This document shows, piece by piece, positions 2,001 through 62,927 of a stretch of DNA of 64,000 bases; the stretch's first letter is position 1, and each line of letters starts with the position of its first letter. The stretch is from Pontiellaceae bacterium B1224 (lineage in GTDB: Bacteria > Verrucomicrobiota > Kiritimatiellia > Kiritimatiellales > Pontiellaceae). The DNA lies in the NCBI GenBank assembly GCA_029432815.1, contig JAROBA010000002.1, positions 62,001 through 126,000 on the forward strand. Reading direction: 5' to 3'. The notes below the pieces were generated by a model. The model did no database searches and was not told the DNA's origin. It saw only the letters and a list, made by a program, of their open reading frames with translations. The position numbers and the translations under genes were made by a program.

Positions 2001-2745
2001 TCTCTTTCCGTGTAGCGATCGTTTGCCTGAGGAACGAAGGAAACGAAGATCCCGGCGGCCGGCCTCTCTGCGGCGCCACCGCTTCCCTCATTCTTCGGGT
2101 AAGCGGTCTCTACACCTGCAACGCGGCAAAATGAAAGCGTCGGATTGGGCGTAGAACGAATCGCCATCGTTCCAATCTTTGGAAAAGCTGTTTGGCTTTC
2201 CAAGGATTGGAAGTCGGGTGACTCCACCCAAAAAGCTTCAGCGTTGATTCATAATATTTTGGAGTGAATGGCGGGCATGAATCCCTTTCGTGTAGCGTTC
2301 GTTTACCTGAGAAACGAAGGAAACGAAGATCCCGGCGGCCGGCCTCTCTGCGGCGCCACCGCTTCCCTCATTCTTCGGGTAAGCGGTCTCTACACCTGCA
2401 ATGCGGCAAATGTAAGCGTTGGATTGGGCGTAGAATGAATCGCCATCGTTCCAATCATTGGAAAAGCTGTCTGGCTTTCCAAGGATTGGAAGTCGGGTGA
2501 CTCCTTCCCAAAAAGTGTCAGCGTTGATTCATAATATTTTGGACTGAATGGCGGGCATGAATCCCTTTCGTGTAGCGTTCGTTTACCTGAGGAATGAAGG
2601 AAACGAAGATCTCCGCAGCCGGCTTATCTGCGGCGCCACCGCTTCCCTCATTCTTCGGGTAAGCGGTCTCTACACCTGCAACGCGGCAAAATGAAAGCGT
2701 CGGATTGGGCATAGAACCAATCGCCATCGTTCCAATCATTGGAAA
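2001..2745. repeat. 280-bp tandem direct repeat, 2.6 copies
   Basis: Three head-to-tail copies begin near 2001, 2281 and 2561 (the marker TGTAGCG falls at 2011, 2291 and 2571, an exact 280-base period). Copies one and two are full and differ at a few percent of positions; copy three stops at about 2745. Each unit contains two short hairpin elements facing each other (TGTAGCG...GGAAACGA and, inverted, TGTAGAGACCGCTT...AAGCGGT). Each also carries the TTCCA-N5-TGGAA palindrome, twice per full unit, 13 bp apart. The short open frames inside are repetitive and have no ribosome sites. No gene is claimed between 1921 and 3173; 2746-3173 is AT-rich and holds nothing I recognise. Confidence 0.9.
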
Positions 2746-3173
2746 AAGCTAATGCCCTTCTATTTACTTGCCATAAGAATCCCTCGAAACCACTATGTCT
2801 TTCCAATACAAAGGGTGCGAGTAGTGAGAACAGGCAAGCGGGCCCGATTATCCCTTCAATATTCGGATGTCAGGCAATTTTGCTGATCAATAATATGTTC
2901 GCTAGAAAGAAATACAGGACTGCTTAATAATAAATTTTGAGGGTTGGAAATGATAACAGAATTGAGTGGGAACAATTTCCCGAAGGTTGGAAAAATAAAG
3001 TAAAGGTGCCAGTTTGCCTAAATCGTCATTGCGATTGACCGGCTACTCTGGATTTGGTTTTTCACCGCATGTAGAGAAAGGTAAAAATAGATTTTGAGAG
3101 TCACATATCATGTAGCTGAAAGACAAGATGACGAAGTAGGCGACTGCACCTTGTCCCGACAATGGAGTACATT

Positions 3174-4448
3174 ATGATTTTGGGAGAGTTTGGGAGCGAA
3201 AAAACATTTTGGGATCAAACAGAAGCGTTATACAAAAAACAAAAGATGAAAAGCTGTGGTTTAGCAAAGCGCTGTAGCAACATTGGAGAACTCAAAAATT
3301 CTCGCATAATGAAGGAGTTTTTCTCGTACTGTCGGTGCATTTTTTCTGACGAATATTTACTCGCTACCGATCTTGAAAAATTTGCTTTAACGACAAGGCA
3401 CTTCTTTTCCAGAGGGAAACTGACAGAATTTCATAAATCGTATCATGATCAAGTAATGGATTTTTGGAGGAACACAGAAAGATACAGTCAGAAATTTTCT
3501 CAGAACGGAGTATTTCTGCCTCCACATAAAAACTCTCTATCTGATTTAAAGCAAAATACTTTACTTTTGGAGTATCTCTATTCTCCTATTAAACGGGGGC
3601 CACATAGTTTCCGTAGAGGTAATGATCGAAAATCCAACCCTAATCTTGAGCACTTGCTCGTTACTGATGGGTCAAATTACCTAATAACTAATCGATATTT
3701 TTTTATTGCGCCAGAGGGTTCAAAGGAGGGAGTGCGATTGTTTTGGTCAGAATTCCGGTATTCTAAAAAAAATAGTTTTTTGGGAGATTCTAAAATTGTG
3801 TTGCGTCCGGCTGTTGACAGCTGGACCAGTGAATATGTGATACCTACCGAGTTTGCTGTTTCGAATTCAACCTTCTATTCTAAAGTCCATAACTGGGATG
3901 AAAAAAGAAGTGAGATTGATAAGACAAATAGAAAGAGGAAAGCGCTAGAAGAGATAATTCATGAGAAGTATGAAAAAAATGATGAAGAAAGGAGACGAGA
4001 AGCCCAAAAGAAAAAAAATGAGACTCTCAGGCAACAGCGTCAACATGAGGAAGCACAGCGCATCCAAAAAGAGAAAACTGCACGCAAAAATATGCCACCC
4101 CCTGAATACTGTACAACATGCGGAGAATCAGACTGGTCTTTGCAAGAAGCGTCACCTAATCTACGTTCTGCTGTATGGGAGTGTGAATATTGTGGAAAAA
4201 CCACTCGCATTCTTTCTCAAGACCTGAGGCTCCAAACACCCCAGCGTTCTCCCATTCCAAAAAAAGTACAAAGAGACGTGTGGCGACGTGATCAAGGACG
4301 CTGTGTGGAATGTGGAAGCAAGGAGAATATTGAATTCGACCACATCATTCCTGTTTCAAAGGGTGGAGCCAACACAGTCCGGAACATCCAGTTGCTCTGC
4401 CAAGACTGCAATCGCACCAAAAGCAACAAGGACCCGGGAGAATCATGA
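3174..4448 (+). CDS. HNH endonuclease-domain protein with zinc-ribbon
   Basis: A ~424-residue protein. The N-terminal ~250 residues match nothing I recognise. Residues ~250-310 are a highly charged Lys/Glu/Arg coiled coil. A four-Cys zinc-ribbon follows (CTTCGESDW ... CEYCGK), then a C-terminal HNH nuclease domain: CVECGS, FDHIIPVSKGG, CQDCNRTKSNKD, with the catalytic His in DHIIP and paired metal-binding Cys. I chose ATG 3174 over 3162 because GGAG lies six bases before it. The gene is clearly AT-richer than its neighbours, suggesting horizontal acquisition. HEPN-like and Cys-rich genes follow on the same strand, so a defence role is possible but unproven. Confidence 0.8.
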   Translation: MILGEFGSEKTFWDQTEALYKKQKMKSCGLAKRCSNIGELKNSRIMKEFFSYCRCIFSDEYLLATDLEKFALTTRHFFSRGKLTEFHKSYHDQVMDFWRNTERYSQKFSQNGVFLPPHKNSLSDLKQNTLLLEYLYSPIKRGPHSFRRGNDRKSNPNLEHLLVTDGSNYLITNRYFFIAPEGSKEGVRLFWSEFRYSKKNSFLGDSKIVLRPAVDSWTSEYVIPTEFAVSNSTFYSKVHNWDEKRSEIDKTNRKRKALEEIIHEKYEKNDEERRREAQKKKNETLRQQRQHEEAQRIQKEKTARKNMPPPEYCTTCGESDWSLQEASPNLRSAVWECEYCGKTTRILSQDLRLQTPQRSPIPKKVQRDVWRRDQGRCVECGSKENIEFDHIIPVSKGGANTVRNIQLLCQDCNRTKSNKDPGES

Positions 4449-4476
4449 CCTTCGTTAATTCGCGAGAGGAGACAAT

Positions 4477-7094: not shown

Positions 7095-7673
7095 TTATTG
7101 CTTCGCTCCAAACCAGTTTTCGGTCAGGCACCCGCGCAGGCGCATTCGCGCCCGGTGGAGCATGACCCATAGATTGGTCGGGGTGATGCCCAATTCCTTA
7201 CAGATCAAATCGGAATCCTGTTCTTCGAGTTCGCGTAAGACAAACAGGCGGTGCAGCCGGTCGGGCAAATGTTCCATACATTGGAAAAGCACCCCCATGA
7301 ATTCCTTCTGTTCCAGAATTTTTAAGGGATTCACCTGCCATTCAACAGGCTTGATCCGCCAACGCCCCTTGCGATCAAAAAATTCCTCTTCCGGAGTTTC
7401 CTGATCTGCAACTTTATCGATCGGCAGTTCTCGGCCCTCTTTGCGAATCAGGTCTACAATCTTGTGCTTAAGAATGCCGATGAGCCAGGTGCGGGCGGAG
7501 GATCGGCCCGAAAAGGTTTTCCCGGACCTCAGCGCAGCCAGCAGGGTTTCCTGCACGACATCTTCGGCGGAAGCGGGATTATTCAAACGGCTCAGCGCAT
7601 AGCTGTAGAGCGCATCGCCGTGTTCATCCACCGCTGCTTCCGCATCGAATCCAGTCGTCGGAGGTTCTCCCAT
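7095..7673 (-). CDS. ECF-type sigma-70 family RNA polymerase sigma factor
   Basis: A 192-residue sigma factor with region 2 (ALYSYALSRLNNPASAEDVV, QETLLAAL, ARTWLIGILKHKIVDLIRKE) and region 4 (LHRLFVLRELEEQDSDLICK, ELGITPTNLWVMLHRARMRL), without region 3 or 1.1: the ECF layout. Its ATG overlaps the stop of the peroxiredoxin gene (TAATG) and its stop lies one base from the anti-sigma ATG, so the three are translationally coupled. It should direct transcription of a stress regulon, probably including its own operon. The peptide FQCME in the inter-domain part is encoded by a TTCCA-N5-TGGAA palindrome (7272-7286). Confidence 0.9.
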   Translation of the reverse strand: MGEPPTTGFDAEAAVDEHGDALYSYALSRLNNPASAEDVVQETLLAALRSGKTFSGRSSARTWLIGILKHKIVDLIRKEGRELPIDKVADQETPEEEFFDRKGRWRIKPVEWQVNPLKILEQKEFMGVLFQCMEHLPDRLHRLFVLRELEEQDSDLICKELGITPTNLWVMLHRARMRLRGCLTENWFGAKQ

Positions 7674-9070: not shown

Positions 9071-9979
9071 TTAAAGTTCACTGCAACTCGCACCATTGGC
9101 AAAGCAGGTAAAACAACGGTGGTGTTTCATCATCACACGAGCCCCCATGGCCTCGGCGAGACTGCCGCCCTGATCATACGCCTCGTCGTCATCGACCAGC
9201 GTGCAGGCATAAACCCGCATGCGCCCGCCCTTTTTCACGACCATCTTGCTGAAGCTGCACATAAATCCATCGCGTTGCGCTTCGGTTTTATAGGTCGTCA
9301 TGCAGGATTCGGTAATGTAGGGCACATCGGGATGGGCGTTCGGCACATCAAATTCCGGAAAAACGACGATATGCGTATCCGCCGGAAGCCCAGCCTTTTC
9401 AAAGTATGGAACATAGTCCCGGTTTACGGCATCCACATCTTCGCCCGTGGCACTCTGCCGCGCAATCGACACCTTGAAACCTAACCGGTGCAACTCAGAC
9501 ATGGTTTTAAGTGAAAGATCAAAGTTTCCTTTGCCGCGCTCGGCATCGTGTTTTCCAGGGTCTGGAAAATCGAGACTGACGCGAAAAGCCAACGGATATT
9601 TTTTATCGGCCAGTTCAGCCACCTGATGCAATCGGTTTAAAAGCGGTTCGGTGGCGTTGGTCAGCACCAGACAGGGATTCAGATCGAGGGCGTAATCCAG
9701 AATTGAAACCATATCCGGAATAACAAAAGGTTCGCCGCCGGTAAAAGAAAACTGCTCCGTTCCTAATTGCAGCGACTCCTGCATGAAGGGTTTAACCTCT
9801 TCCAGCGTGATGGCATTCAGCCGATAGTCCCCCGGCTTGGAACCTTCCAGACAAAAAGAACAGCGCAGATTACATACTGTTCCCGTATGAAACCACAACT
9901 CCTGCAGCTTCTTCGGTTGAATGTAGCCCCTTTTCGGGGCTTGTTTAACGGTCGGATTTTCGATGATGGCCTCGTTCAT
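9071..9979 (-). CDS. Radical SAM protein with C-terminal Cys cluster
   Basis: A 302-residue radical SAM enzyme: CNLRCSFC binds the catalytic 4Fe-4S cluster, and FSFTGGEPF is the GGE motif that contacts SAM. Later cysteines (ESCMTTYK, GFMCSFSK, VYACTLVDDDEA, and the terminal HHRCFTCFANGASCSEL) suggest one or more auxiliary clusters. It is not the ArsS arsenosugar enzyme as I know it (different N-terminal motif). GGAAAATACT precedes the ATG. It lies 13 bp upstream of the ArsM-like gene and 81 bp after msrB. The reaction is unknown; modification of a methylated metalloid or of a peptide are both possible. Confidence 0.85.
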   Translation of the reverse strand: MNEAIIENPTVKQAPKRGYIQPKKLQELWFHTGTVCNLRCSFCLEGSKPGDYRLNAITLEEVKPFMQESLQLGTEQFSFTGGEPFVIPDMVSILDYALDLNPCLVLTNATEPLLNRLHQVAELADKKYPLAFRVSLDFPDPGKHDAERGKGNFDLSLKTMSELHRLGFKVSIARQSATGEDVDAVNRDYVPYFEKAGLPADTHIVVFPEFDVPNAHPDVPYITESCMTTYKTEAQRDGFMCSFSKMVVKKGGRMRVYACTLVDDDEAYDQGGSLAEAMGARVMMKHHRCFTCFANGASCSEL

Positions 9980-10608: not shown

Positions 10609-10706
10609 AATCTGTAGGCAATGTTTCTTCTTCCAATGATTGGAAGTTTGGGTTGCTTCAAAGACAACAGGGATTTAGTTTCCAACCATTGGAAGCGAGA
10701 CTTGGT

Positions 10707-16956: not shown

Positions 16957-18332
16957 AATTGATCCTCCGCAAAATAGACATCCATCACGAACTCGCGTGC
17001 AAACAACTTCTTCGAAGGGCGACTGAACACGGTGGTTTTTTCGCTGAACCGCTCGCTGGCTCGCAACGAATCTCTCAATGACCTAACGACATCCTGCCCA
17101 TCGGGTTCTTTATCCAGATAGCTGACCACCGAAATCCGGATGCCGTTCAGCGGCTCATTCGGAAGAAGCGGCTCGGTGGCAAGCAGGAACATACCTTCCG
17201 GTAGCAGCCGGTTGAGCTCCTCCAACGTCTCCAGCCAAAACGTGCGATTCGCCAGTACGTCATCGTAAACGGCCGCCCGGCGGTTCAGCCCGTCAACCTG
17301 CTCCTCCAGCGGCAGGAGCTGCTGTTCGATCCGGCTTAGTTCTCGAACCTGTTTTTCGACCGACCCCATCACTGTTCGGGTCTCCGCAAGCTGCAGATTC
17401 AGATTAAGGATCCAGACGGCCAACAACAGCACAAGCATGACCGCCGCAGCAATCCAAAGCGGCAGACGCCTTTTCAACTCCTGCTCATGCTGTAAAGAAA
17501 CCGGTACCAGATTAATGGCCACAGCCTGATCGACCGCCAAACCCATGCAAACCGAACCCGTGGATGCATCAACCGGAAGTGAGAGACGATCGCCGAGGGA
17601 TTCAGCCAAGCTTCGTTCAGCCAACACACGTTCCGGCGCCCGACCTTGCTGCTGACTTCGGTAAAACGTAATTGAACGCTCGATTTCCTTAACCAGTCGA
17701 TCCTTAACACTTCCAACCATTGGAAGGGTACGGAAAAAGGTTCGGGCTCCATCAATAAACACTAAGTTTGAAGATTCTGTTCCGGCATCAACCAGCAACA
17801 TAGAGCTGTCTGTTTTTTCAACAGCCCGCACCGCATTGGCCAGAGCCACGGGAGCCACGCTGATCTTTTCAATGGCCAGTCCATTGGCCTTCACCGCATG
17901 CACCAACCCCTCAACCAACTCGGCTTTAACGGCAACCAGCAGCACCTCCGGTTCCGGAACATCAGGATCGATGACGTGCGCATCCCATACCACCTCATCA
18001 ATAGGAAACGGAATATTCTGAACCGCCTCATGACGAATGGTCTTCTCCAACTGATCACTTCCAACCATTGGAAGTTTCACCAACCGGGAAAAAACCGCCG
18101 AGCCCTCGATTGCAATACGGGTCCGTTTGGTTCCAGGTTTCCGGCCATCCATCAGCCGCTTGAGTGTCATCGCCACCACTGCATCCTGCGGCAGTTCGGC
18201 AGAAATATCACCAGCGAATTCAGCAAAGCCGGAATCCAGCAGCTGAGGCGTATCGGATGAAGAAAGAGCAAACACGGCCATACGGATGCCGTCTGCCTCA
18301 ATACTCAATGCTATAATCCGGTCAGTCTTCAA
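16953..18332 (-). CDS. PilM-like protein fused to a PilN-like membrane segment (Amuc_1101 family)
   Basis: A 459-residue protein. The N-terminal ~290 residues form an actin-like ATPase fold of the PilM family (IIALSIEADGIRMAVF, MLLVDAGTESSNLVFIDG). A TM helix follows (LPLWIAAAVMLVLLLAVWIL), then a coiled coil and a PilN-like C-terminal domain, so PilM and PilN functions appear fused. The start is a TTG with AAAAGGA about nine bases upstream. It heads the operon. Two copies of LPMVGS (KLPMVGSDQ and TLPMVGSVK) are both encoded by TTCCAACCATTGGAA palindromes (18059 and 17711). Confidence 0.85.
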   Translation of the reverse strand: MKTDRIIALSIEADGIRMAVFALSSSDTPQLLDSGFAEFAGDISAELPQDAVVAMTLKRLMDGRKPGTKRTRIAIEGSAVFSRLVKLPMVGSDQLEKTIRHEAVQNIPFPIDEVVWDAHVIDPDVPEPEVLLVAVKAELVEGLVHAVKANGLAIEKISVAPVALANAVRAVEKTDSSMLLVDAGTESSNLVFIDGARTFFRTLPMVGSVKDRLVKEIERSITFYRSQQQGRAPERVLAERSLAESLGDRLSLPVDASTGSVCMGLAVDQAVAINLVPVSLQHEQELKRRLPLWIAAAVMLVLLLAVWILNLNLQLAETRTVMGSVEKQVRELSRIEQQLLPLEEQVDGLNRRAAVYDDVLANRTFWLETLEELNRLLPEGMFLLATEPLLPNEPLNGIRISVVSYLDKEPDGQDVVRSLRDSLRASERFSEKTTVFSRPSKKLFAREFVMDVYFAEDQL

Positions 18333-18401: not shown

Positions 18402-19181
18402 TTAAATCCGGCTCAACAGCTGCTTCGCGGCAACGCCGGGGTCGGGTTCGCGCAGTAAACTTTCGCCCACGAGAATGGCATGTGCTCCCGCTTTTTTCAG
18501 CAACACGACATCTTCCGGCGTCTTGATTCCGCTCTCACTCACCAGTGTGCAGCCGGCCGGTGCCATCGCCGCCAGCTCAAAGGTTGTATCAAGCGAAGTC
18601 ACGAACGTTTTAAGATTGCGGTTATTAATGCCGATGCAGTCGGAGCCAGCATCAATCGCCCGCTGCATTTCCTCACGGTCGTGCACTTCCACCAAGGGCT
18701 GCAGTTCCAAGATCTGGATTTCTTTGATGAAGCGGGCCAACTCTTCATCGGTCAGTGCACCAACAATCAGCAGCACCGCCGAAGCACCCATGGTTTTGGC
18801 GTGGGCAATCTGCCATGAATCGACCACGAACTCTTTGTAGAGCATCGGGATTTCAATGGCGTTGCGGACCTCGGAAAAATCCTCCGCCCCGCCGCCGAAA
18901 TATTTGTGGTCCATCAGACAGGAAACCGCACTCGCGCCGTTGGCTTCATAGCCCTTCGCAATTTCCGATGGACTGAACGGTTCGCGGATCAGTCCGGCCG
19001 ACGGAGACTTACGCTTCACTTCCGCAATCAGCCCCATCGGAGCAGCCCGCAGGGCCTGAACAAAATCAGGGCGGTTTCCAATGTCTGGAAGCATTGCCTG
19101 TAACGCTTCCAGGGATTGGAACTTTTTGCGCTCTTCCACTTCAATGCGTTTGTCCGCACAGATCTGTTCGAGAATATTCAT
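18402..19181 (-). CDS. trpC: Indole-3-glycerol phosphate synthase
   Basis: A 259-residue TIM-barrel enzyme closing the indole ring in tryptophan synthesis. Signature blocks: LIAEVKRKSPSAGLI (catalytic Lys), VLLIVGALTD, GINNRNLKTF, LVSESGIKTPEDV and ILVGESLLREPDPG. The ATG at 19181 lies one base after the preceding stop, so the two genes are coupled. The N-terminal helix carries FQSLE and, 15 residues on, LPDIGN, both made by TTCCA-N5-TGGAA palindromes (19107 and 19076). No other trp gene is adjacent. Confidence 0.95.
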   Translation of the reverse strand: MNILEQICADKRIEVEERKKFQSLEALQAMLPDIGNRPDFVQALRAAPMGLIAEVKRKSPSAGLIREPFSPSEIAKGYEANGASAVSCLMDHKYFGGGAEDFSEVRNAIEIPMLYKEFVVDSWQIAHAKTMGASAVLLIVGALTDEELARFIKEIQILELQPLVEVHDREEMQRAIDAGSDCIGINNRNLKTFVTSLDTTFELAAMAPAGCTLVSESGIKTPEDVVLLKKAGAHAILVGESLLREPDPGVAAKQLLSRI

Positions 19182-19182
19182 G

Positions 19183-19723: not shown

Positions 19724-20815
19724 TTACCGGTTCTTCTTCAAATAGGCTTCAATGAACGGGTCGATGTTTCCATCGAGCACACCCGCAGCATTACCGATCA
19801 CCTCGTCGGTTCGGTGATCTTTCACCTGCGTGTACGGCTGCAGAACGTAGGAGCGGATCTGCGAACCCCAGGCAATCTCCCCTTTATCGCCGTAAAGCTG
19901 ATCAACCGCCTGGCGCTGCTTGTCCTGCTCATGTTCATAGAGCCGGGCCTTCAGCATCTTCATGGCCGCCGCTTTGTTTTTATGCTGCGAACGTTCGGCC
20001 TGACACTGCACCACCGTTCCGGTCGGCAAGTGGACAATACGCACGGCCGAGTCGGTCGTATTCACGTGCTGACCACCGGCGCCCTGCGCGCGATAGGTAT
20101 CGATCCGCAAATCAGATTCCACAATTTCAATATTAATGTCGTCGTCCAGTTCCGGCGTCACATCCGCCGCAACGAATGACGTATGACGGCGCGACTGCGA
20201 ATCGTACGGACTGATACGCACCAGACGATGCACGCCGCGCTCAGATTTCAGTAAGCCATAGGCATAGGCCCCGCTGATCAAAATGGAAACGCTCTTAATG
20301 CCCGCTTCGTCGCCCGACTGATAGTCCATAATCTGGACCTTAAAATTCTTCCGTTCCGCATAACGAGTATACATGCGATACAGCATATCCGCCCAATCGC
20401 AGCTTTCGGTTCCGCCGGCCCCGGCGTGCAACGTGAGATAAGCCCCGTTGGCATCGAACTCATCGCCGAGCAGCGACTGCATTTCCAATGATTGGAAACT
20501 GCTCTCCACCTTTTTCAGTTCCGACTCGGCCTCCGCCAGCGCTTCATCCTCACCCGCATCCGCAAGTTCCAGCATCAATTCGGCGTCATCCAGTCCGCCG
20601 CTGATGGAATCGAACGGATCGAGCACCATCTTCAGCGATTTGGTGGCGGCAATATTCGCCTGCGCCTTATTCTGGTCGTTCCAGAAATCGGGCACTGCCG
20701 CAGCGGCCTCGAGCTTTTCAAGTTCAGCCCGTTTAGCGGCAATATCCAGATAGCCTTCCATTTCGGTCAGCTGCTCACGAAACGCTTCTATTCTTGGTTT
20801 CAGTTCTTCCTGCAT
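19724..20815 (-). CDS. prfB: Peptide chain release factor 2
   Basis: A 363-residue class I release factor. The GGQ motif (AQGAGGQHVNTTDSA) that triggers peptidyl-tRNA hydrolysis is intact. The RF2 identity comes from the N-terminal MEGYLDIAAKRAELEKLE and the RISPYDSQSRRHTSF region; the stop-codon tripeptide reads SPY instead of SPF. The usual programmed frameshift after GYL is absent: the frame runs GAA GGC TAT CTG GAT with no in-frame TGA, so autoregulation is lost. The start ATG 20815 has GGAAGGA five bases upstream, which overlaps a TTCCAATCATTGGAA palindrome. Confidence 0.93.
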   Translation of the reverse strand: MQEELKPRIEAFREQLTEMEGYLDIAAKRAELEKLEAAAAVPDFWNDQNKAQANIAATKSLKMVLDPFDSISGGLDDAELMLELADAGEDEALAEAESELKKVESSFQSLEMQSLLGDEFDANGAYLTLHAGAGGTESCDWADMLYRMYTRYAERKNFKVQIMDYQSGDEAGIKSVSILISGAYAYGLLKSERGVHRLVRISPYDSQSRRHTSFVAADVTPELDDDINIEIVESDLRIDTYRAQGAGGQHVNTTDSAVRIVHLPTGTVVQCQAERSQHKNKAAAMKMLKARLYEHEQDKQRQAVDQLYGDKGEIAWGSQIRSYVLQPYTQVKDHRTDEVIGNAAGVLDGNIDPFIEAYLKKNR

Positions 20816-20822: not shown

Positions 20823-20837
20823 TTCCAATGATTGGAA
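20823..20837. promoter_or_regulatory. Palindrome overlapping the prfB ribosome-binding site
   Basis: TTCCAATGATTGGAA ends seven bases before the prfB ATG; on the prfB strand its right arm contributes the GGAA of the GGAAGGA ribosome site. If the palindrome folds or is bound, initiation could be affected. This is positional evidence only. Confidence 0.4.
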
Positions 20838-20891: not shown

Positions 20892-22547
20892 TCAGATGTC
20901 AGTCTTCTTTTTTCTGCGCCGTTTCAGGGAGTTGGGAGACAGCACGACCATGACACCGATGCCGATGATGACCGCTCCTTTTGCAAAGAGGTTGCCTTTG
21001 CGGGTGTAGAAGGTTTGCTCCATACCCTCGGGGCGCGGGGAAATGGCGGCCACGGCAAGGCCTGCTTTGCGCGGTTTGAGTTTGCGGTCGATATTACCGT
21101 AGGCATCGATGGCACCGGAGACGCCGGTGTTGCAGCAGCGGACCATGGGAATGCGATTTTCAATACAGCGAAAGACGGCGTGGGCAATATGCTGTTCGGA
21201 CTGAGCGGAAGGATCGAACCAGGCGTCGTTCGTTTGATTGACGAGCCAACGGGCTCCGGCCAGAGTTGCGTTGCGGGCGAGCGGCGCAACGATGTCTTCA
21301 AAACAGATCAGCACGGAGAACGGGGCTTTGCCGGGCAGCGGCAGAACGGTGCTGCCGGCTCCATGCCCGAAGTCGATATCGATAGGCGTAAACTTGCGCA
21401 TCAGTCCGGGAAAGGGAACATATTCTCCGAAGGGTACGAGATGCTGCTTATCATATTTCGCGATTTCAGCTCCATTGGTGCCCACCAGAATGGAGCTGTT
21501 GAAATAGGTCCGGCGTCCTTCATTAATGGTGTAGTCCATGGTGCCGACGAGAATGGGGGTTCCTTTTTCAACCAGCTTGTCGACCATTTCGTAGCTGGTT
21601 CGGTCGTACGTTGAACGGAGAAAATCAGGAATAGCGGTTTCTGGCCAGATGATCAGATCGATGCCCTCAATTCGTTCGGCGGCACTGGTGAGTTCTTCGA
21701 GGCGATCGCGGATGTCCTGATCCATGGCGTCGTCCCACTTGGCGGCCTGTTCGATGTTGGGCTGCACCAGCGCCACCTTTACCGCTTCATAAAAGCGCGG
21801 GCGGTTGAGCAGAATATTCATGCCGTGCGCAACGGAAAGCGCCACCGGCAGCACCCCGACCATCAATTCGATGTGCGGCTTATATTTGTGCGAGCGGCTT
21901 CCGGAGATGTATTGACGGAAGGTGATGAAGACGCCGGCATTCATCCAGACGATATAGGCCGAGACTACGGAGACCCCGCCCCACTTCGCAACCTGGATAA
22001 TGGCGGGATTTGCATATTGCGAAACTCCGAGCGAATTCCAGGGAAAGCCGGTGAACAGAACTCCTCGCAAATATTCCGAGCCGACCCAGACCGCGGTGAC
22101 TGCAAACATGAAACGTATATTTTTTCGCAGATTATTTCCGGCCCATTTTTTGGCCCCCACCGAAACGGCAATGGAAAACGGAATGACGTATAGCGCGCAG
22201 TAGAGGGCCAGCACGGCAAAGCCCAGCAGAGCACTGAGCTGAAGCCCAACTCCCTCAACCCGGCCGGTTAAATGCCGGAGCCACGAGAGCGACATCATGA
22301 AAAACACAAAGCCGGAAAGCAGACCCAGCCACGCTGCTTTTTTCACAGATGCTGACTGAATCGCGAGCATCAGCGGCACGAGTGCAACATAGATGAGTGT
22401 GGCGTTTCCATAGCCTGGAAATGAAAGTGCCAGCAGCACCCCCGAGAGTATGCTTCCAATGACTGGAAGCAACGGCGATTTGAGCACGGGATGATCGAGC
22501 TTGAAGGCGGGACGTTCTTTATCGTACGCCTTCCGCTTCTTATCCAT
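20892..22547 (-). CDS. lnt: Apolipoprotein N-acyltransferase
   Basis: A ~551-residue inner-membrane enzyme that adds the third acyl chain to lipoproteins. About seven N-terminal membrane helices are followed by a nitrilase-type periplasmic domain. The catalytic triad is visible: Glu in IIWPETAIPDF, Lys in YDKQHLVPFGEYVPF, and Cys in VLICFEDIVAPL. WLVNQTNDAWF and RCIENRIPMVRCCNTG also fit. A possible start at 22568 lies inside a TTCCAATGATTGGAT half-palindrome with no ribosome site, so I prefer ATG 22547. Two further palindromes encode SFPGYGN (22406) and LPVIGS (22454) near the N terminus. Confidence 0.93.
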   Translation of the reverse strand: MDKKRKAYDKERPAFKLDHPVLKSPLLPVIGSILSGVLLALSFPGYGNATLIYVALVPLMLAIQSASVKKAAWLGLLSGFVFFMMSLSWLRHLTGRVEGVGLQLSALLGFAVLALYCALYVIPFSIAVSVGAKKWAGNNLRKNIRFMFAVTAVWVGSEYLRGVLFTGFPWNSLGVSQYANPAIIQVAKWGGVSVVSAYIVWMNAGVFITFRQYISGSRSHKYKPHIELMVGVLPVALSVAHGMNILLNRPRFYEAVKVALVQPNIEQAAKWDDAMDQDIRDRLEELTSAAERIEGIDLIIWPETAIPDFLRSTYDRTSYEMVDKLVEKGTPILVGTMDYTINEGRRTYFNSSILVGTNGAEIAKYDKQHLVPFGEYVPFPGLMRKFTPIDIDFGHGAGSTVLPLPGKAPFSVLICFEDIVAPLARNATLAGARWLVNQTNDAWFDPSAQSEQHIAHAVFRCIENRIPMVRCCNTGVSGAIDAYGNIDRKLKPRKAGLAVAAISPRPEGMEQTFYTRKGNLFAKGAVIIGIGVMVVLSPNSLKRRRKKKTDI

Positions 22548-42445: not shown

Positions 42446-44416
42446 TTAATCTGCCACAGGAACTGGCTGGCTTTCGGAGTCGGCCTTTTCGTTGGCATCC
42501 GGACGAATGCTCACGGATTTTGTCGGATCTGTTTCTGTAACGGAATAGGGCTTAAGCACCCCGATACTTTCTCCGGATTCATCGAGGTCTCTGACTACAA
42601 AGATAAAATCTCGCACCAGCAAATTATGTGTTTTGCACATCGCGAGCACCTCTGCCCGCAATTCATCGCTGTAGTAGTGGGTGAATATTACCTCGTCAAC
42701 ATCCTGATCCGTGATGATCTGCTCGAGTTCCTCAAAGTTTCCAAGCACTGGAAATCCATAAACGTTTTTCTGATACAGCCCCGGGTTATCATCAATCAAC
42801 CCGATAATTTTACGAGGCGCTTTCTGTTGGTCCTCAAAAGTGGCTTGCCGTAGATAGAGGATCGCATTTTCCCCGGCCCCCAGTATCAGCGTTTTTAAAT
42901 CATTTTCAGAGCTCACTGAAGAGCGAAGCCATGCATTGAGATCCCGAGCCACGCGCAGCGAAGCGCGTATCCCGACGATGCCGATTGCGGCTATGACGGT
43001 ATGCAGAATTAATCCTACAACGAGTTCTTTTCCGGACAGATCCGAAGCCCAGAGCAGTGCCACATATGCAAGCGCCTCGCCGGCAAGCAGCTGAAGAAGC
43101 AGGACCAGCAACTGAGAAATGCGTGACCGGGTCCATACGATTTTGTAGATGTTATAAAAATAGATCGTCGCGAACGGGATGGTCACGCAAACCGCTAAAT
43201 GCAGCGGAGAGAATGAGCGATCAAGTACGATTCCGAACACAAAATAGGTTGCAAACAAGAGGCACGATACGTCCCAGCAAATTCCGACAAATAAACCAAT
43301 CAGATTACGTGGTCGCCGAACGCCCTGCAGAACAACCTGCGTGGTGGTCCAAAGCTCTACTTGCGCGATTTGACGAACAATTACGTGTAGCACGACAATC
43401 ATGCCAACCATGAACAAAGCCACTCGATTATCAGTCATTGCCGTTGCGGCCAGAGCAATTACACAGATAAAGATGGCGGCGCCATAAAGCGCAATCGCAG
43501 CTTTACGCTGCGTCATCCCGCTACGCATTAATTTATGGTGAATATGATCAAGGTCCGGACCGAAAACTTTCGTTGCCAGGCCGTCACCCTTTATGGAAGA
43601 CACAATTTTACGCGCCAAGCGCCTCCAGACCGCCATAATGACATCGAATACAGGTACACCCACCGCCAGCAACGGAACAAGCAAGGCCACAACCATCGAC
43701 TGCTTAACGTCCGCCTTAAGCGATACAGCAGCCAGCATAAAGCCAATAAACATGCTGCCGCAGTCTCCGAGAAAAATTGAAGCAGGGTTGAAGTTATAGC
43801 GCAGGAAACCAAGACATGCTCCGGCAAGCGCAATCAGGACCATTGCATCGGTTGGTTGATGAAGAGAAAGCAGCATACCCGCAAGCCCGGCACTGGCGAT
43901 CATACCCAGACCGCCGCAGGCACCATCCATTCCGTCAATCAGGTTAAAAGCATTAATCAGCAGAACAAACCAGAACAGCGTTACTCCCAGATTAATGATC
44001 CACGGCAACGGCATATGTAAAAAAGCCTCGAAGGTGAAACCCCCGAAAAACATAAGCAGAGCAACTGCAAGCTGACCCAGCAACTTAAACCAGGCCTTCA
44101 TATCGAACATATCGTCAAAGATTCCGACCAATAATAAGACCAGCGATCCCGCAAAAATAAATAACCAGTCCTGCAACTGGGTTGCACCTCCCAGATTATG
44201 CCAAGGCCCAAAGAAAACAGCCAACAACCCAAGGTGGGTGGCAATAAAAACGGCAATACCGCCGCAACGGGGAATGGGGGTCTTATGAATGCGACGTTCA
44301 TCCGGCTCATCCACCATCTTGAGCGCGGGAGCAATTTTTTTAACCCACGGAACCAGAATCCACGATGCAACCAGACTGATCAGAAAAACTACAATGTACT
44401 TAATTAAGAAACTCAT
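42446..44416 (-). CDS. WecA/TagO-type polyprenyl-phosphate sugar-phosphotransferase fused to a membrane and Rossmann domain
   Basis: A ~656-residue membrane protein. The N-terminal ~340 residues are a PNPT-superfamily transferase with DEPDERRIHKTPIPRCGG, VGIFDDMFDMKAW, NAFNLIDGMDG and DLDHIHHKLMRSGMT, which attach the first sugar-phosphate to undecaprenyl phosphate. It continues as four more helices and then a nucleotide-binding Rossmann-like domain (LKTLILGAGENAILYLRQ) like the N-terminal half of CapD/FlaA1 epimerases, but with no epimerase catalytic domain. The palindrome at 42739 encodes FPVLGN. The start is probably ATG 44416; TTG 44440 is possible. Confidence 0.85.
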   Translation of the reverse strand: MSFLIKYIVVFLISLVASWILVPWVKKIAPALKMVDEPDERRIHKTPIPRCGGIAVFIATHLGLLAVFFGPWHNLGGATQLQDWLFIFAGSLVLLLVGIFDDMFDMKAWFKLLGQLAVALLMFFGGFTFEAFLHMPLPWIINLGVTLFWFVLLINAFNLIDGMDGACGGLGMIASAGLAGMLLSLHQPTDAMVLIALAGACLGFLRYNFNPASIFLGDCGSMFIGFMLAAVSLKADVKQSMVVALLVPLLAVGVPVFDVIMAVWRRLARKIVSSIKGDGLATKVFGPDLDHIHHKLMRSGMTQRKAAIALYGAAIFICVIALAATAMTDNRVALFMVGMIVVLHVIVRQIAQVELWTTTQVVLQGVRRPRNLIGLFVGICWDVSCLLFATYFVFGIVLDRSFSPLHLAVCVTIPFATIYFYNIYKIVWTRSRISQLLVLLLQLLAGEALAYVALLWASDLSGKELVVGLILHTVIAAIGIVGIRASLRVARDLNAWLRSSVSSENDLKTLILGAGENAILYLRQATFEDQQKAPRKIIGLIDDNPGLYQKNVYGFPVLGNFEELEQIITDQDVDEVIFTHYYSDELRAEVLAMCKTHNLLVRDFIFVVRDLDESGESIGVLKPYSVTETDPTKSVSIRPDANEKADSESQPVPVAD

Positions 44417-48026: not shown

Positions 48027-49112
48027 TCATCCGGCGAAATCTTCGCCACGCCCGGAGCAAAATTCAATGATCCCGGAAATAGTCGAGGCCGAGACCCCGC
48101 GCCAGTATACCTGCCATTTGCCGGAACGGTGGTGCCCTTCAGCCTGCTTGTCGTACCAGGAGTTAAAGGGATTTGCGCGGTTGGAACGCCAGAAAAAGGC
48201 TTCATGATTCCGCTGCACCTCGCTCCAGAGTTCCAGCGCCAGCCCTTCGCCGCGTGCTTCGCGGCCGACCGCAAATTTGGAGAGATAGAGCCCGGATGGA
48301 TGTTCTTCGAGCAGGACCCCCCCTCGATAATTTTTTTCGATGTAGGCGTGCGCCACCTGCCCCAGAAACCCGTGGTCCAGCAACGTTTTTCCGAAACTCG
48401 CTTCAAGCAGTTGCAGCAATCGCGCCCGATCGACCTGTTCCAAACCCTGGAAATGCTGAATAACGCTGCCCTTGCGGAACAGGGTCCCCGCTCCCTTCAC
48501 CGTGAAGATTTCCTGCAGCAGATTGATCGGCGAGGTGACGGAAAGATGAACCCCCGGCCGTTCTTCAAGCAGCTTTTTTCCAAGGGTTGGGAAATCGAAT
48601 TCCAGTTTTTCCAGAGGTTGGAAGTTTTCTTTGTGCGTATAAATATATTCCAGCCGCTCGCCCGCCTCGGATTTCAACCCACCGGCCGCTCGAACAAAAT
48701 GAACGCGTTTCGCGGTATCGGGCAGCATTTCCAGCAGCGCGGCTTCCACATCGAGTTTTTCCGTCACAAAGACCGGCACCTTTTCCTGTTTCCGGGCATG
48801 TTCAATGAAGGGTGCGGCCGTACCTTTTTCCAAGGTCTGGAAAATAAAAACAGATTCCACCGATAGCGCCTGCTGCATTTTCAGGGCATTCGGGCCGCTC
48901 AGCAGAATGGCGGGTACCAGCTCCAGGCGCAAAAGAAAATGCAGATCAAACGCCAAAACCTCAACCCCGGCTTCGATGCTTCCAAGGTCTGGACAAAGAA
49001 GCGCAAAGCATGCGGAGGTGTCGGACTGGAACTTATCGAGATAAAACTCGTATTCGTCCCGCCGCCCGATGCTATCGAGAAACAGCCGTATGGTTTTGTT
49101 CAGTGCAATCAT
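48027..49112 (-). CDS. N-acetylglutamate synthase-like protein (kinase-like domain plus NAT domain)
   Basis: A 361-residue protein. The C-terminal ~150 residues are the NAT domain of vertebrate-type or bifunctional N-acetylglutamate synthases: YLSKFAVGREARGEGLALEL, FFWRSNRANPFNSWYDKQAE, GKWQVYWRG. The N-terminal part resembles a shortened amino-acid-kinase fold, missing its usual kinase glycine motifs. It should acetylate glutamate for arginine synthesis. Palindromes at 48438, 48609 and 48828, plus near-copies at 48577 and 48979, encode FQGLE, FQPLE, FQTLE, FPTLG and PDLGS, many for one gene. Confidence 0.78.
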   Translation of the reverse strand: MIALNKTIRLFLDSIGRRDEYEFYLDKFQSDTSACFALLCPDLGSIEAGVEVLAFDLHFLLRLELVPAILLSGPNALKMQQALSVESVFIFQTLEKGTAAPFIEHARKQEKVPVFVTEKLDVEAALLEMLPDTAKRVHFVRAAGGLKSEAGERLEYIYTHKENFQPLEKLEFDFPTLGKKLLEERPGVHLSVTSPINLLQEIFTVKGAGTLFRKGSVIQHFQGLEQVDRARLLQLLEASFGKTLLDHGFLGQVAHAYIEKNYRGGVLLEEHPSGLYLSKFAVGREARGEGLALELWSEVQRNHEAFFWRSNRANPFNSWYDKQAEGHHRSGKWQVYWRGVSASTISGIIEFCSGRGEDFAG

Positions 49113-49834: not shown

Positions 49835-51478
49835 ATGCCAATGAACTTCCCTGAACCATCTGAGATCCTTTTTGCCGCCTTTAACGCGCGCTATGCGCAC
49901 ACTTCGTTTGGTGCGCGCTATCTGCTGGCCAATATGGGCGAACTGCAGACCCATTCAAAATTGATGGAGTTCGACCTGCAGGTACAGCCCCGCATTGCCG
50001 TTGAAAAGATTCTGGTTCACAATCCGCAAATTGTAAGTATCGGATGCTACATCTGGAACATTGATCTCGTCACAAAGGTTGCCGCCCTGCTGAAAGGCAT
50101 CCGACCCGAAATTAAGCTGATCCTCGGCGGTCCCGAAATTTCCTACGAAACCGAAGAGCAGGAAATTTTCCAATACGCCGATTACGTCGTCTGCGGCGAA
50201 GGTGAAATTGAAGTCCCGAAGCTTTGTTCCTTACTGCTGGGCAGGCGGGCCGCCTGCGATACAGAAATCGCCGTACCGCAGGCGGCCCGTCTGCTCCACG
50301 CTGATCCGGTGGATGTGCAGCAGATCGAACTGCCGTACGATCTTTACTCGGACGAGGACATCAAACACCGCGCCATCTATGTGGAAGCCTCGCGCGGTTG
50401 CCCGTTCCGATGCGAATACTGCATGTCGTCGCTCGATCCCTGCGTGCGCTATTTCCCGGAAAGCAAACTTTTTCCAGCCTTTGGAAGGCTGCTTGATCGC
50501 GGGGCGCTCAGCTTCAAATTCGTCGACCGCAGTTTCAATATCGATATTTCCTTTGCGCTCAAAGTCCTCGCCTTTTTCAAAGCCCGCTATCAGCCCGGCA
50601 TGATGTTGCACTTTGAAGTCATTCCTTCCCAACTTCCCGACGAACTGATGGAAGCCGTTTCGGATTGCCCGCCCGGCATGTTGCAGTTTGAGGTCGGCAT
50701 TCAGACGTTTAATGAAGAAGTCGCACATCGGATTCAACGCCCGCTGGATATTGCTAAAATCGAAACCAATATGCGCCGACTGCGCGATGAAACCGGCGTT
50801 CACATTCATTCCGACCTGATTGCCGGACTCCCCGGCGAAGATCTCAAAAGTTTCGAAGCCGGATTCAATCGTCTGCTCGCCCTCCGGCCGCAGGAAATTC
50901 AACTCGGCATTTTGAAACGGCTGCGCGGCGCACCGATTGATCGGCATTCCAACGATTGGAACATGATCTACAGCCCGCACGCCCCCTACGAAATCCTCAG
51001 CACCAGCCTGATCTCGTTTGAAGACATGCAGCGCATTCAACGCTTCGCCCGCTATTGGAACCTCGTCGTCAACAACGGCCAGTTCATCGACACCGCCCCG
51101 CTCATCTGGTCAGGGAGCAGGCGGGCCGCCTGCGATACGCAAGCCGTACCGCAGGCCGCTGGCCTGCCCGGAGAATCCGCCTTCGCGGCGTTTATGCGCT
51201 TTTCGGATTGGCTCTATGCAAAAACCGATTCGACCGGGAATCTGCATGTGGTTCGTTTGGCTAAGCTGCTGATGGAATTTCTGACGAAGGAACTCGGGCT
51301 TAATGAAAAGGTCGTGGCCGAAGCGCTTTGGTCCGACTATCAGCGCGGTAATCGGCCGGACGTACCGGGGTTTCTGAAAAAATTTGGATTCAACCACAGC
51401 CGGCAGGATGCCGGCGATACGACTGTAGCGCCTGCTTCCTGCGGGCACTCACGACAGAATAGGCATTTACAGGAATAA
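49835..51478 (+). CDS. B12-binding-type radical SAM protein with three palindromic insertions
   Basis: A ~548-residue protein. N-terminal cobalamin-binding-like domain (IVSIGCYIWNIDLVTKVAAL, LILGGPEISYETEEQEIF), central radical SAM domain with YVEASRGCPFRCEYC, and a C-terminal DUF4080-like helical region (ISFEDMQRIQRFARYWNLVV). Substrate unknown. Two linkers contain RPE-like insertions (RRAACDTEIAVPQAARL near residue 144; RRAACDTQAVPQAAGL near 430), and the C terminus ends in a third, degenerate one (RQDAGDT...APASCG). Start at ATG 49835; TTG 49799 is also open. prmA follows three bases after its stop. Confidence 0.85.
   Translation: MPMNFPEPSEILFAAFNARYAHTSFGARYLLANMGELQTHSKLMEFDLQVQPRIAVEKILVHNPQIVSIGCYIWNIDLVTKVAALLKGIRPEIKLILGGPEISYETEEQEIFQYADYVVCGEGEIEVPKLCSLLLGRRAACDTEIAVPQAARLLHADPVDVQQIELPYDLYSDEDIKHRAIYVEASRGCPFRCEYCMSSLDPCVRYFPESKLFPAFGRLLDRGALSFKFVDRSFNIDISFALKVLAFFKARYQPGMMLHFEVIPSQLPDELMEAVSDCPPGMLQFEVGIQTFNEEVAHRIQRPLDIAKIETNMRRLRDETGVHIHSDLIAGLPGEDLKSFEAGFNRLLALRPQEIQLGILKRLRGAPIDRHSNDWNMIYSPHAPYEILSTSLISFEDMQRIQRFARYWNLVVNNGQFIDTAPLIWSGSRRAACDTQAVPQAAGLPGESAFAAFMRFSDWLYAKTDSTGNLHVVRLAKLLMEFLTKELGLNEKVVAEALWSDYQRGNRPDVPGFLKKFGFNHSRQDAGDTTVAPASCGHSRQNRHLQE
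50239..50297. repeat. In-frame palindromic insertion, copy 1 in the radical SAM gene
   Basis: Left arm GGCAGGCGGGCCGCCTGCGA and right arm CCGCAGGCGGCCCGTCTGCT flank a ten-base centre. In frame it encodes GRRAACDTEIAVPQAARL, just after the B12-binding domain. Confidence 0.85.
51113..51171. repeat. In-frame palindromic insertion, copy 2 in the radical SAM gene
   Basis: Left arm GCAGGCGGGCCGCCTGCGAT and right arm ACCGCAGGCCGCTGGCCTGC, with a shorter centre than copy 1. It encodes SRRAACDTQAVPQAAGL in the same phase as copy 1. Confidence 0.85.
51398..51450. repeat. In-frame palindromic insertion, copy 3 at the radical SAM C terminus
   Basis: CAGCCGGCAGGATGCCGGCG followed by GCGCCTGCTTCCTGCGGGCA. 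The arms differ from copies 1 and 2, but the encoded RQDAGDT...APAS peptide and phase match the family. It forms part of the gene's last 30 codons. Confidence 0.6.
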
Positions 51479-51481: not shown

Positions 51482-52342
51482 ATGAGCGAAGAAAATAAAT
51501 ACAGCGGCGGTCAGTTGAATCTGCTTGTGCCGTTTGAACATGTGGAACGCGTCTGCGAGTGGGTTCGCGATGCTTTTGGAAAAGAGTCGATCGAAGTCAC
51601 CCAGCCGATGGCGGACGAATCGCTGATCGAAATTTATTTTGATTCCCTGCTCGAAGCGGAAATTGCCAAAAAGGCGCTGCCGGATGATCTCTATATCAAA
51701 GCGGCCGATGCAAAGGAATATAAGGAGCAGGACTGGACCACCTTCTGGCAGCACCATTTCCAGACCCTGGAAATCGGAACCAGCCTGCGGATTGTTCCGG
51801 AATGGGAAGAAACCCCGGACGACGATAAAATCAATATCATCATCAACCCCGGCCTCAGCTTCGGCACGGGAGGACACTTCACCACGAAATTCTGCCTCGA
51901 AGCACTGGAAACCAGTTTCCAATCTTTGGAAATCGAAACGATGATCGATGCCGGAACGGGCAGCGGTATCCTCTCCATCGCCGCCATCAAACTCGGAATA
52001 CCCGATGTGGTGGCCTTCGACTACGATCCGGTCTGTGTGGACCAATGCAATCTAAATGCCGAACGCAACGGCGTGGAAAATAGAATCCATTTTTTCCAGG
52101 CCGATGTTCTGCAACCGGGCTGGTATGCCAAACCGGCGGATCTCGTCTGCGCCAATATTCTGACGTCCGTTTTGCTCGATGCCGCGCCTCTGATTAAACG
52201 GGCTGCCACCAAACGCATCCTGCTCAGTGGGATTCGGGAAATCGAAGCCGATGCCGTGGCTGACACCTTTATTCAACTGGGTTGCAAAGAAGTCTCTCGC
52301 GATGGCGACGGGCAGTGGTGCGGCATCGTGCTCGACGTCTAG
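51482..52342 (+). CDS. prmA: Ribosomal protein L11 methyltransferase
   Basis: A 286-residue methyltransferase that trimethylates L11. Diagnostic PrmA blocks: NPGLSFGTGGHFTTKFCLEA, IDAGTGSGILSIAAIKLG (SAM motif), VAFDYDPVC and DLVCANILTSVLL. AGGAATAATTT precedes the ATG. FQTLE (51758) and FQSLE (51917) are palindrome-encoded, falling in the linker and just before the SAM motif. Confidence 0.93.
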   Translation: MSEENKYSGGQLNLLVPFEHVERVCEWVRDAFGKESIEVTQPMADESLIEIYFDSLLEAEIAKKALPDDLYIKAADAKEYKEQDWTTFWQHHFQTLEIGTSLRIVPEWEETPDDDKINIIINPGLSFGTGGHFTTKFCLEALETSFQSLEIETMIDAGTGSGILSIAAIKLGIPDVVAFDYDPVCVDQCNLNAERNGVENRIHFFQADVLQPGWYAKPADLVCANILTSVLLDAAPLIKRAATKRILLSGIREIEADAVADTFIQLGCKEVSRDGDGQWCGIVLDV

Positions 52343-57892: not shown

Positions 57893-57956
57893 TAAACAAA
57901 CTCCCGCTCATCAATCAACGGGGGAATGGTACGTTTCTTTCCAATCATTGGAAAGC

Positions 57957-58009
57957 GTGAAACGTGAAACGTGAAACGTGAAACGTGAAACGTGAAACGT
58001 GAAACGTGA
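57957..58009. repeat. Heptamer tandem repeat (GTGAAAC), seven copies
   Basis: GTGAAAC is repeated seven times without change at 57957-58005, followed by GTGA and an eight-T tract. It follows directly on the palindrome at 57939-57953, between the divergent barrel-protein and YihY transcripts' ends. A slippage-prone site. Confidence 0.95.
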
Positions 58010-60934: not shown

Positions 60935-60957
60935 CTCCATTTACGTGACCCGAAGTT

Positions 60958-62628
60958 CTAGGCTTCAAGAATCGCTCCGTTGCTGGCATTCGTTGCCATT
61001 TTGGCATAACGCGCAAGCCAGCCGGTTGTGAAGCGCGGTGCAGGTTCCTTCCAATCCTTCCGACGTTCAGCAAGCTCTTCGTCGGACAGCTGAACCGAAA
61101 GTTTATTATTTGGAATGTCGATTTCAATGATGTCGCCTTCGCGGATCAAGCCGATCGGACCGCCTTCGGCCGCTTCCGGAGAAATGTGGCCGATGCAGGC
61201 CCCGTGGGTGCCGCCGCTGAAGCGGCCGTCGGTGATCAAAGCGACCTTATCGCCGAGACCCTGCCCCATAATGTAGGAGGTCGGGGCGAGCATTTCCTGC
61301 ATACCTGGTCCGCCTTTCGGGCCTTCATAGCGAATCACCACCACATCGCCAGCCTTCACCTTATCGGCCAGAATGCCTTCACAGGCTTCTTCCTGCGATT
61401 CGAAGATGACCGCCGGACCGGTGTGCACCAGCATTTTCGGGTCGACCCCCGCGCTTTTCACCACGCAACCACCTTCGGCCAGATTACCCCAGAGAATGGA
61501 GAGGCCGCCGGTTTCGGAATACGCATGCTCGAGATCGCGAATACAATCCAGATCCTTACTCGCAATGCCTGCAATATTTTCGCCGAGTGTTTTTCCTGTA
61601 ACGGTCGGGCAATCGAGAGTCAGCAGATCTTTCTTTTTCGCGGTTTCCGCAAGAATGGCGCTGATGCCGCCGGCCGCATGCACATCCTCAATGTGGTAGT
61701 GCGACGAAGGCGAAACCTTACAAATGTTCGGTGCCTTTTTGGAAACAGCATTAATCCGTTCGAGGCTGTATTCAACGCCCGCTTCTTTAGCAATCGCGAG
61801 CGTATGCAATACGGTGTTGGTGCTTCCGCCCATGGCCATATCGAGCGCGAAGGCATTGTCCAGCGACTCCTGCGTGACGATATCACGCGGCAGCGGTCCA
61901 TCGGCATGTGCCATTTCAACAGCGCGCTTGGCGGCATCTTTCCAGAGCTGATGGCGAGCCGGATCGAGCGCAAGAATGGTTCCATTGCCTGGAAGTGCAA
62001 GGCCGATGGCTTCGCAAAGGCAGTTCATGGAGTTTGCGGTGAACATGCCGGAACACGAGCCCTGCCCCGGGCAGCCTTTGCATTCGATCTCTTCAAGCTC
62101 TTCATCCGTAATTGTGCCCTGCTTATGTTCAGCCACTGCTTCGAAGACGCTGATCAAGTCGACCACTTTTCCATCCTTCGTCTTGCCAGCCTTCATCGGG
62201 CCGCCGCTGGCGAAAATGGTCGGAATGTTCACACGCATGGCACCCATAATCATCCCCGGAACAATCTTGTCGCAGTTCGGGATGCAGATCATGGCATCGA
62301 ATGCATGTGCTCCCACCATGGTTTCAACCGCATCGGCAATCAGCTCGCGGCTCGGCAAAGAATATTTCATGCCGGAATGGCCCATCGCGATGCCGTCGCA
62401 GACGCCGATCATATTAAATTCAATCGGTGTACCTCCGGCTTCGCGGACAGCGTCTTTCACAATTTTACCGACCTGATCCAAATGCGCATGACCCGGAATG
62501 ACTTCATTGAAAGCATTACAGACCGCGATGAACGGCTTCTTAATGTCTTCCGACGACATTCCAGTCGCCCGCATGAGACTGCGGTGTGGGGCTCTTTCCA
62601 ATCCTTTTTTCGTTTTATCACTACGCAT
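60958..62628 (-). CDS. ilvD: Dihydroxy-acid dehydratase
   Basis: A 556-residue iron-sulfur enzyme of branched-chain amino-acid synthesis. Cluster cysteines are in [13 protein letters not shown] and [20 protein letters not shown]; further blocks are [19 protein letters not shown] and [26 protein letters not shown] precedes the ATG. A palindrome at 61980 encodes LPGNGT. A partial, decayed second copy lies 1.8 kb away at 58977-59165. Regulation by a leader is not evident. Confidence 0.96.
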
Positions 62629-62828
62629 AGCAGGTCCTTTTCTTAAGTCGGTTAATGGGTGCGAATATTACCAGAGCCAGCCACGAAGTAAATCACGTCC
62701 TGAAATGAATACCCACCGAAACGTGATCGGAACGCACATATTAAATCATCTCTTGGTATATATTTTGCTCTATACACGTAAATTTCGCACGAATTATAAA
62801 ACTACGATTTAGAAAGATCATTTACACC
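62629..62828. other. Divergent intergenic region between ilvD and the phosphodiesterase unit
   Basis: AT-rich toward the right (TTGGTATATATTTTGCTC around 62755). It should contain promoters for ilvD and the rightward unit, but no clear boxes stand out. Confidence 0.35.
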
Positions 62829-62927
62829 ATGGAACGGGAAAGCAACCATCAGATTAAGTGGCGCACCACTTCCGCCGGCACGGCGGCATATTTTTCCAAA
62901 CCTTGGAAAAAGGATGCCGCTAAGTGA
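62829..62927 (+). CDS. Possible 32-residue leader peptide overlapping the phosphodiesterase gene
   Basis: ATG 62829 opens a frame reading MERESNHQIKW...FSKPWKKDAAK and stopping at TGA 62925-62927, which overlaps the next gene's GTG start (GTGA). FSKPWKK is encoded by a TTCCA-N5-TGGAA palindrome. No ribosome site is evident. It may be a coupled leader or a chance frame. Confidence 0.3.
   Translation: MERESNHQIKWRTTSAGTAAYFSKPWKKDAAK

Follow-up and report, generated by a model that had tools for sequence, protein, structure and literature searches.

The chromosome of Pontiellaceae bacterium B1224 (GenBank assembly GCA_029432815.1; here G000) is pervaded by a gapped 15-bp palindrome, TTCCA-N5-TGGAA, which we interpret, at a probability of roughly 0.4, as thousands of sites for one putative cooperative, dimeric, intracellular DNA-binding protein that is probably chromosome-architectural. 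The motif had been noticed in a sequence-only reading of a 64,000-nucleotide stretch of contig JAROBA010000002.1 (C127; positions 62,001 to 126,000), hereafter called the window. Across its 5.38 Mb the genome has 2,237 sites, compared with 3 matches to the reversed pattern, which served as the genome-wide control, and because of this excess the count is neither near expectation nor a peculiarity of the window. We class it as a highly iterated dispersed motif, and not as a member of the DNA uptake sequence (DUS)/uptake signal sequence (USS) or HIP1 classes.

The window contains 41 exact sites between positions 1575 and 62908, where 39 had been counted from position 2170 onward and the site at 1575 had been overlooked. 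The rough expectation of 0.05 given with that count was recomputed as 0.09 (dinucleotide shuffle) or 0.38 (from the observed 5-mer frequencies), still far below the observed number. Twenty one-mismatch copies were also present, in agreement with the earlier figure of at least eight. Enrichment was restricted to the 5-base spacer, since gaps of 0-4 and 6-10 bases gave zero copies. Our own gene calls placed 31 of these sites inside genes, so the description of the motif as mostly genic was correct. The copies at 2170, 2198, 2449, 2477 and 2730 are not independent, because all five fall within a 280-bp tandem repeat (positions 1998-2746, 2.7 copies).

Site statistics were drawn from 484 kb of G000 and from samples of relatives, with a home-made gene caller. 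The 484 kb gave the longer consensus [not A]TTCCA-R-N-S-N-Y-TGGAA[not T], in which the central base was G or C in 230 of 241 sites; the centre, described as variable in the sequence-only reading, is not free. One spelling of the dyad, considered as a pair with 31-bp spacing, is TTCCAATCATTGGAA. Against the 241 perfect sites there were 176 one-mismatch sites (15 for the control), the changes falling mostly at positions 1/15 and 5/11, with A5/T11 among the more tolerated positions and the TCC/GGA core strict. The flanks had no common sequence and no conservation beyond one base. About 71% of the sites were in genes, evenly spread along them, and site density was 1.14 per kb in intergenic DNA versus 0.40 per kb in genes.

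In families f3, f10, f13 and f14 most sampled sites lay between genes, in arrays with a 31-32 bp spacing; f13 had a second spacing of 22 bp. Retrieval of the named arrays was conditioned on the 31-32 bp spacing, whereas the spacing data for the complete genome G101 carried no such condition. There, neighbours within 150 bp lay 22, 31-32, 40-43, 53, 63, 82-85, 116 and 125 bp apart and beyond, phased at 10.5 bp (n=24, R=0.87, p=1e-8), also when the 30-33 bp gaps were left out (n=17, p=8e-6). The phasing was repeated in G105 and G024. Since neighbours in G101 lie at whole helical turns, the reader is expected to bind duplex DNA on one face. Near-sites in mRNA orientation comprised 22 of the G.U type and 36 of the A.C type, and the G6/T10 and A6/C10 combinations were about equal (35 and 31); this lack of a G.U preference, together with the helical phasing, indicates that the motif is read as a duplex and not as an RNA hairpin. 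Among the genes flanking the named arrays no family recurred, and their orientations matched the ordinary intergenic background, indicating that the arrays are not promoter-specific; a regulatory role was rejected on these grounds. A macrodomain signal was likewise rejected, as sites in G101 had no origin/terminus bias.

A survey of 346 Kiritimatiellia genomes found copy numbers ranging from background in many families to hundreds or thousands in others (3,209 in G049 and 2,297 in G092), and a separate scan of the phylum found 0-7 copies of the RNSNY form in genomes outside the class. The motif is therefore confined to the class Kiritimatiellia. Named records carrying arrays have mostly the titles of Kiritimatiellae, Lentisphaerae or Verrucomicrobia metagenome-assembled genomes. 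Sister genera carry mutually exclusive central dialects, RNSNY, YRSYR and YTSAR. In family f13, genus g22 uses the RNSNY form (462 of 467 sites in G032) and has no YRSYR, while genera g23 to g26 and g28 have YRSYR centres (up to 285); genus g32 of f14 has YRSYR-like centres, and G294 of f29 the third form, YTSAR. Two loci were given to G294 by order of retrieval, and no site was found in the sampled G294 regions. In every dialect nearly all sites have G or C as the dyad base. RNSNY arrays were carried by only 8 of 2.9 million viral contigs, Mu-like phages among them, and one 18.85-kb IMG/VR contig (L464 and L120) had 9 sites, a host-like density. The Mu-like phages (L464/L120, L460, L461) have 31-bp motif arrays, intergenic or in a small gene. 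In G387, which belongs to another class, the reversed control of the RNSNY pattern occurred 52 times and is possibly another iterated dyad. The sequence-only reading had missed that the centre is constrained, that there are dialects, that related families have phased intergenic arrays and that the motif is limited to one class.

The four sites of a gloB-like gene (38148-38906) aligned without gaps to 20 congeners. They were made by substitutions, some of them amino-acid changing, with no indels at the sites; the peptide is FxSLQ in most relatives and FQSLE in motif-rich species, and across orthologues the half-sites hold while the centre varies. These ungapped substitutions and the dissimilar flanks bear out the view that the palindrome is not a transposed repeat, and insertion or transposition was rejected. 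The comparison of orthologous genes that had been proposed thus revealed gain by point substitution, and also decay in some congeners, as shown by G088, where 8 of 24 sites are exact and another 8 are one-off. Between rich congeners, 34 of 48 unique site pairs (13 genes) were exact versus 6% for the control, and the peptide was identical in only 29% of the exact pairs; poor or moderate congeners shared 1 of 90 sites. Between families f1 and f2, 4 of 20 and 4 of 12 sites (counts that may overlap) were exact versus about 5% for the control, the peptide never being identical. Sites hold their position at 73% nucleotide identity, partly across families. There were 172 coding sites, where synonymous-codon shuffling left 20, and 77 FQxLE peptides, where 1.5 were expected, so that a constraint at the DNA level reshapes proteins. 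Conservation at orthologous positions, combined with the excess of coding sites and FQxLE peptides, means that the DNA word itself must be under selection or drive, and the retention of sites in relatives despite a changed protein points to a chromosome-wide DNA-binding protein.

In the mechanism that we propose, a symmetric dimer, suggested by the symmetry of the motif, would bind double-stranded DNA through two TTCCA-R half-sites, separated by one helical turn, with the G/C dyad base between them. The putative protein would occupy thousands of chromosomal sites in a subset of Kiritimatiellia, act inside the cell and oligomerize along one DNA face, best at three helical turns, and the oligomer may organize or package the chromosome, somewhat like NrdR or Lrp dimers on phased boxes but at genome scale. 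In the genus of the window single sites seem to be enough, which would let them spread into many genes and leave their mark on the proteome as FQxLE peptides. Slightly more tentative is the full form of this proposal, in which a previously undescribed chromosome-organizing protein of Kiritimatiellia would read thousands of helically phased dyads with high specificity, that specificity having split into three or more dialects; in Pontiella-like species the shift of its sites into genes would be so strong that they dictate amino acids proteome-wide.

Several observations weigh against this proposal. The genome of the window itself has no helical phasing (R=0.17), and, in the absence of drive, keeping up thousands of single sites would ask much of selection. 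Moreover, the ParB, Lrp, NrdR, ComEC and Y1 transposase families did not segregate with the motif over 65 genomes picked as rich, dialect, decayed or motif-free, and a co-conserved DNA-binding protein, which had been suggested as a check, was not found among ParB, Lrp and NrdR. ParB/Noc was rejected because motif-rich genomes have no extra paralogue: most rich and poor genomes gave one ParB match, and none was found in G000 and G105. Lrp was rejected as a single conserved orthologue in nearly all genomes; its helix-turn-helix (HTH) is little changed and very similar in G000 and the motif-poor G089 and G081 (wrong-frame picks from G032, G033, G042, G172 and G184 were ignored in the alignment). 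NrdR, whose architecture fits, was rejected as canonical and single-copy in nearly all of the 65 genomes, including motif-free ones; rich genomes and motif-free genomes alike have a canonical Zn ribbon. Finally, copy number, the fraction of sites in open reading frames (ORFs) and the dialects fit uptake sequences equally well.

An uptake sequence, for which a competence receptor would prefer dyad-bearing DNA and recombination of the preferred fragments would raise the number of sites, is a close rival, only somewhat less probable in our view. It would account for a uniform density of about one site per 2-2.4 kb over the chromosome, for the ORF fraction (65% in Haemophilus influenzae; PMC1939737) and for the ratio of one-mismatch to perfect sites (764:1471 in H. 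influenzae), as well as for the origin by point substitution, the exclusive sister-genus dialects, as for DUS, and the loss in some congeners; PilM and secretin genes lie within the window. ComEC was present in 64 of the 65 genomes, but does not discriminate, because motif-free genomes have it equally. Described uptake sequences are not palindromes (PMC1939737), while the motif is a perfect dyad, no role in uptake is obvious for strict arrays at 31-32 bp or for phasing at 10.5 bp, and positions are kept at considerable divergence. It is chiefly the phased arrays, the deep positional conservation and the palindromic form that lead us to favour an intracellular binder; the two readings lie close together, because uptake agrees just as well with the ORF fraction, the dialects, the uniform coverage and the ratio of one-off to perfect sites.

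The remaining explanations appear much less probable. A HIP1-like site, modified by an orphan methyltransferase and enriched by repair or mismatch correction, is improbable: cyanobacterial HIP1 is also palindromic, very abundant and swapped for alternate HIPs in some species (PMC4390886), but the present site spans 15-17 bp with a constrained centre, and helical phasing of neighbours would not be expected. Of the two readers suggested earlier for the dyad, a protein agrees with the phasing, the strict core and the dialects, whereas a methylase is not supported, given the tolerance at A5/T11. We give as little credence to a self-mark, a bidirectional Chi-like signal by which sites would protect or license the chromosome against a defence or recombination nuclease. 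Uniform coverage and the few Mu-like phage contigs with arrays, one at host-like density, would suit it; the rarity of arrays among viral contigs would not, the motif is long, dyadic and unlike Chi, and no nuclease is implicated. Least probable by far is a mobile palindromic element, of the repetitive extragenic palindrome (REP)/REPIN type moved by a REP-associated tyrosine transposase (RAYT), or an RNA hairpin. RAYT-like Y1_Tnp genes do occur (11 matches in G000) and the palindrome could fold weakly, but copies are substitution-born without indels or shared flanks, Y1_Tnp is absent from G120 and G117, which do have the motif, and true GTAG-headed REP-like pairs are separate in G000. REP/RAYT was rejected for want of association with Y1 transposases and of a conserved GTAG head or flanks, and the RNA hairpin for want of a G.U bias.

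Separate REP/REPIN-like palindromes, often GTAG-headed (GTAGGACAGGCTTCCAGCCTGTC) and unrelated to the motif, occurred 11 times in the 484 kb of G000, in the window at 31776 and 31808, at 50242, and at 51118 and 51152, with others in C127, C120 and C160; they are probably tied to the RAYT-like Y1 transposases. In families f12-f14, f17, f21 and f29 a second ComEC-like match fell in open frames of great length (about 1,100-1,370 codons). Adjoining nrdR (23257-23814), the window encodes a lysine/alanine-rich histone H1-like protein (Pfam HC2; 23826-24380, minus strand), possibly a nucleoid protein of the host. A (GAAACGT)8 tandem repeat (57951-58009) directly adjoins one motif site. All sites of the window are listed in Table 1.

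Table 1. Exact TTCCA-N5-TGGAA sites in the window, with the genes that contain them
Site	Location	Gene coordinates (strand)	Basis or remark
1575..1589	motif site TTCCAAACAGTGGAA		pattern match
2170..2184	280-bp tandem repeat		pattern match
2198..2212	280-bp tandem repeat		pattern match
2449..2463	280-bp tandem repeat		pattern match
2477..2491	280-bp tandem repeat		pattern match
2730..2744	280-bp tandem repeat		pattern match
7272..7286	sigma-70-family gene	7095-7673 (-)	
9553..9567	radical SAM gene	9071-9979 (-)	
10631..10645	intergenic		own gene calls
10680..10694	intergenic		own gene calls
17711..17725	PilM-like gene	16953-18332 (-)	
18059..18073	PilM-like gene	16953-18332 (-)	
19076..19090	ORF	18402-19217 (-)	
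19107..19121	ORF	18402-19217 (-)	
20483..20497	peptide-chain release factor gene	19724-20860 (-)	
20823..20837	peptide-chain release factor gene	19724-20860 (-)	at start of gene
22406..22420	apolipoprotein N-acyltransferase gene	20892-22568 (-)	
22454..22468	apolipoprotein N-acyltransferase gene	20892-22568 (-)	
23180..23194	ORF	22583-23260 (-)	
23231..23245	ORF	22583-23260 (-)	just past nrdR
29644..29658			
29797..29811			
32074..32088	peptidase M48 gene	30676-32694 (+)	kept in G092, G074
32096..32110	peptidase M48 gene	30676-32694 (+)	kept in G092, G074
38400..38414	gloB-like gene	38148-38906 (-)	common to G093, G092, G074
38486..38500	gloB-like gene	38148-38906 (-)	common to G093, G088, G092, G074
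38558..38572	gloB-like gene	38148-38906 (-)	common to G088, G092, G096
38700..38714	gloB-like gene	38148-38906 (-)	common to G093, G092, G074, G086, G099
40854..40868	amino acid kinase/PUA gene, proB-like	39959-41167 (+)	
41900..41914	aldehyde dehydrogenase-family gene, proA-like	41181-42437 (+)	
42739..42753	glycosyltransferase family 4 gene	42446-44440 (-)	
48438..48452	N-acetylglutamate synthase-like gene	48027-49112 (-)	
48609..48623	N-acetylglutamate synthase-like gene	48027-49112 (-)	
48828..48842	N-acetylglutamate synthase-like gene	48027-49112 (-)	
50472..50486	B12-binding radical SAM gene	49799-51478 (+)	
50947..50961	B12-binding radical SAM gene	49799-51478 (+)	
51758..51772	prmA-like gene	51482-52342 (+)	
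51917..51931	prmA-like gene	51482-52342 (+)	
57939..57953	intergenic		beside (GAAACGT)8 repeat
61980..61994	ilvD/edd-family dehydratase gene	60958-62628 (-)	
62894..62908	intergenic		own gene calls

Codes of this sort, in which a specific sequence recurs at thousands of sites, are known from few bacterial groups (DUS, USS, HIP1), and why they exist is debated. The present code is new in sequence and phylum, symmetric and helically phased, with dialects that switch between sister genera. No literature description was found under one common spelling or three consensus forms, in keeping with the sequence-only reading, which knew of none; the class literature was covered in part, and an earlier mention is possible. 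Because the dialects switch and sites are gained and lost within one genus, drive and function can be tested directly against each other, and culturable relatives (Pontiella, Tichowtungia) appear to exist.

Among known systems, matS, parS and Noc-type sites are palindromic chromosomal sites for dedicated organizers, but they number in the tens and are regionally biased, whereas the motif occurs in thousands without origin/terminus bias, in genomes that as a rule have one ParB. NrdR box pairs are palindromic, with 15-17-bp spacers and three helical turns between centres, four being tolerated (PMC12051234), and the motif pairs of families f3, f10, f13 and f14 resemble them in their 31-32 bp, or three turns; NrdR, however, controls ribonucleotide reductase promoters and is present also in motif-free genomes, while the motif is genome-wide. 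The Ss-LrpB sites TTGCAAAATTTGCAA are 15-bp palindromes forming regularly spaced dimer sites that wrap DNA (PMC4046817). Lrp/AsnC sites thus share the length and symmetry of the motif, but the HTH of the conserved Lrp of the class is the same whether a genome is motif-rich or motif-poor. Like HIP1 (GCGATCGC), the motif is a highly iterated, lineage-limited palindrome with alternates in some species; HIP1 is an uninterrupted, GC-rich 8-mer with a link to methyltransferases, whereas the motif is a gapped 5-5-5 dyad of 15-17 bp with helical phasing. With the DUS and USS of Neisseriaceae and Pasteurellaceae it shares thousands of dispersed perfect copies, mostly genic, birth by point mutation, dialects and few one-off copies. 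It differs from them in its unrelated sequence and phylum, and in being a symmetric dyad with a 5-base centre, with phased arrays and positions kept across species.

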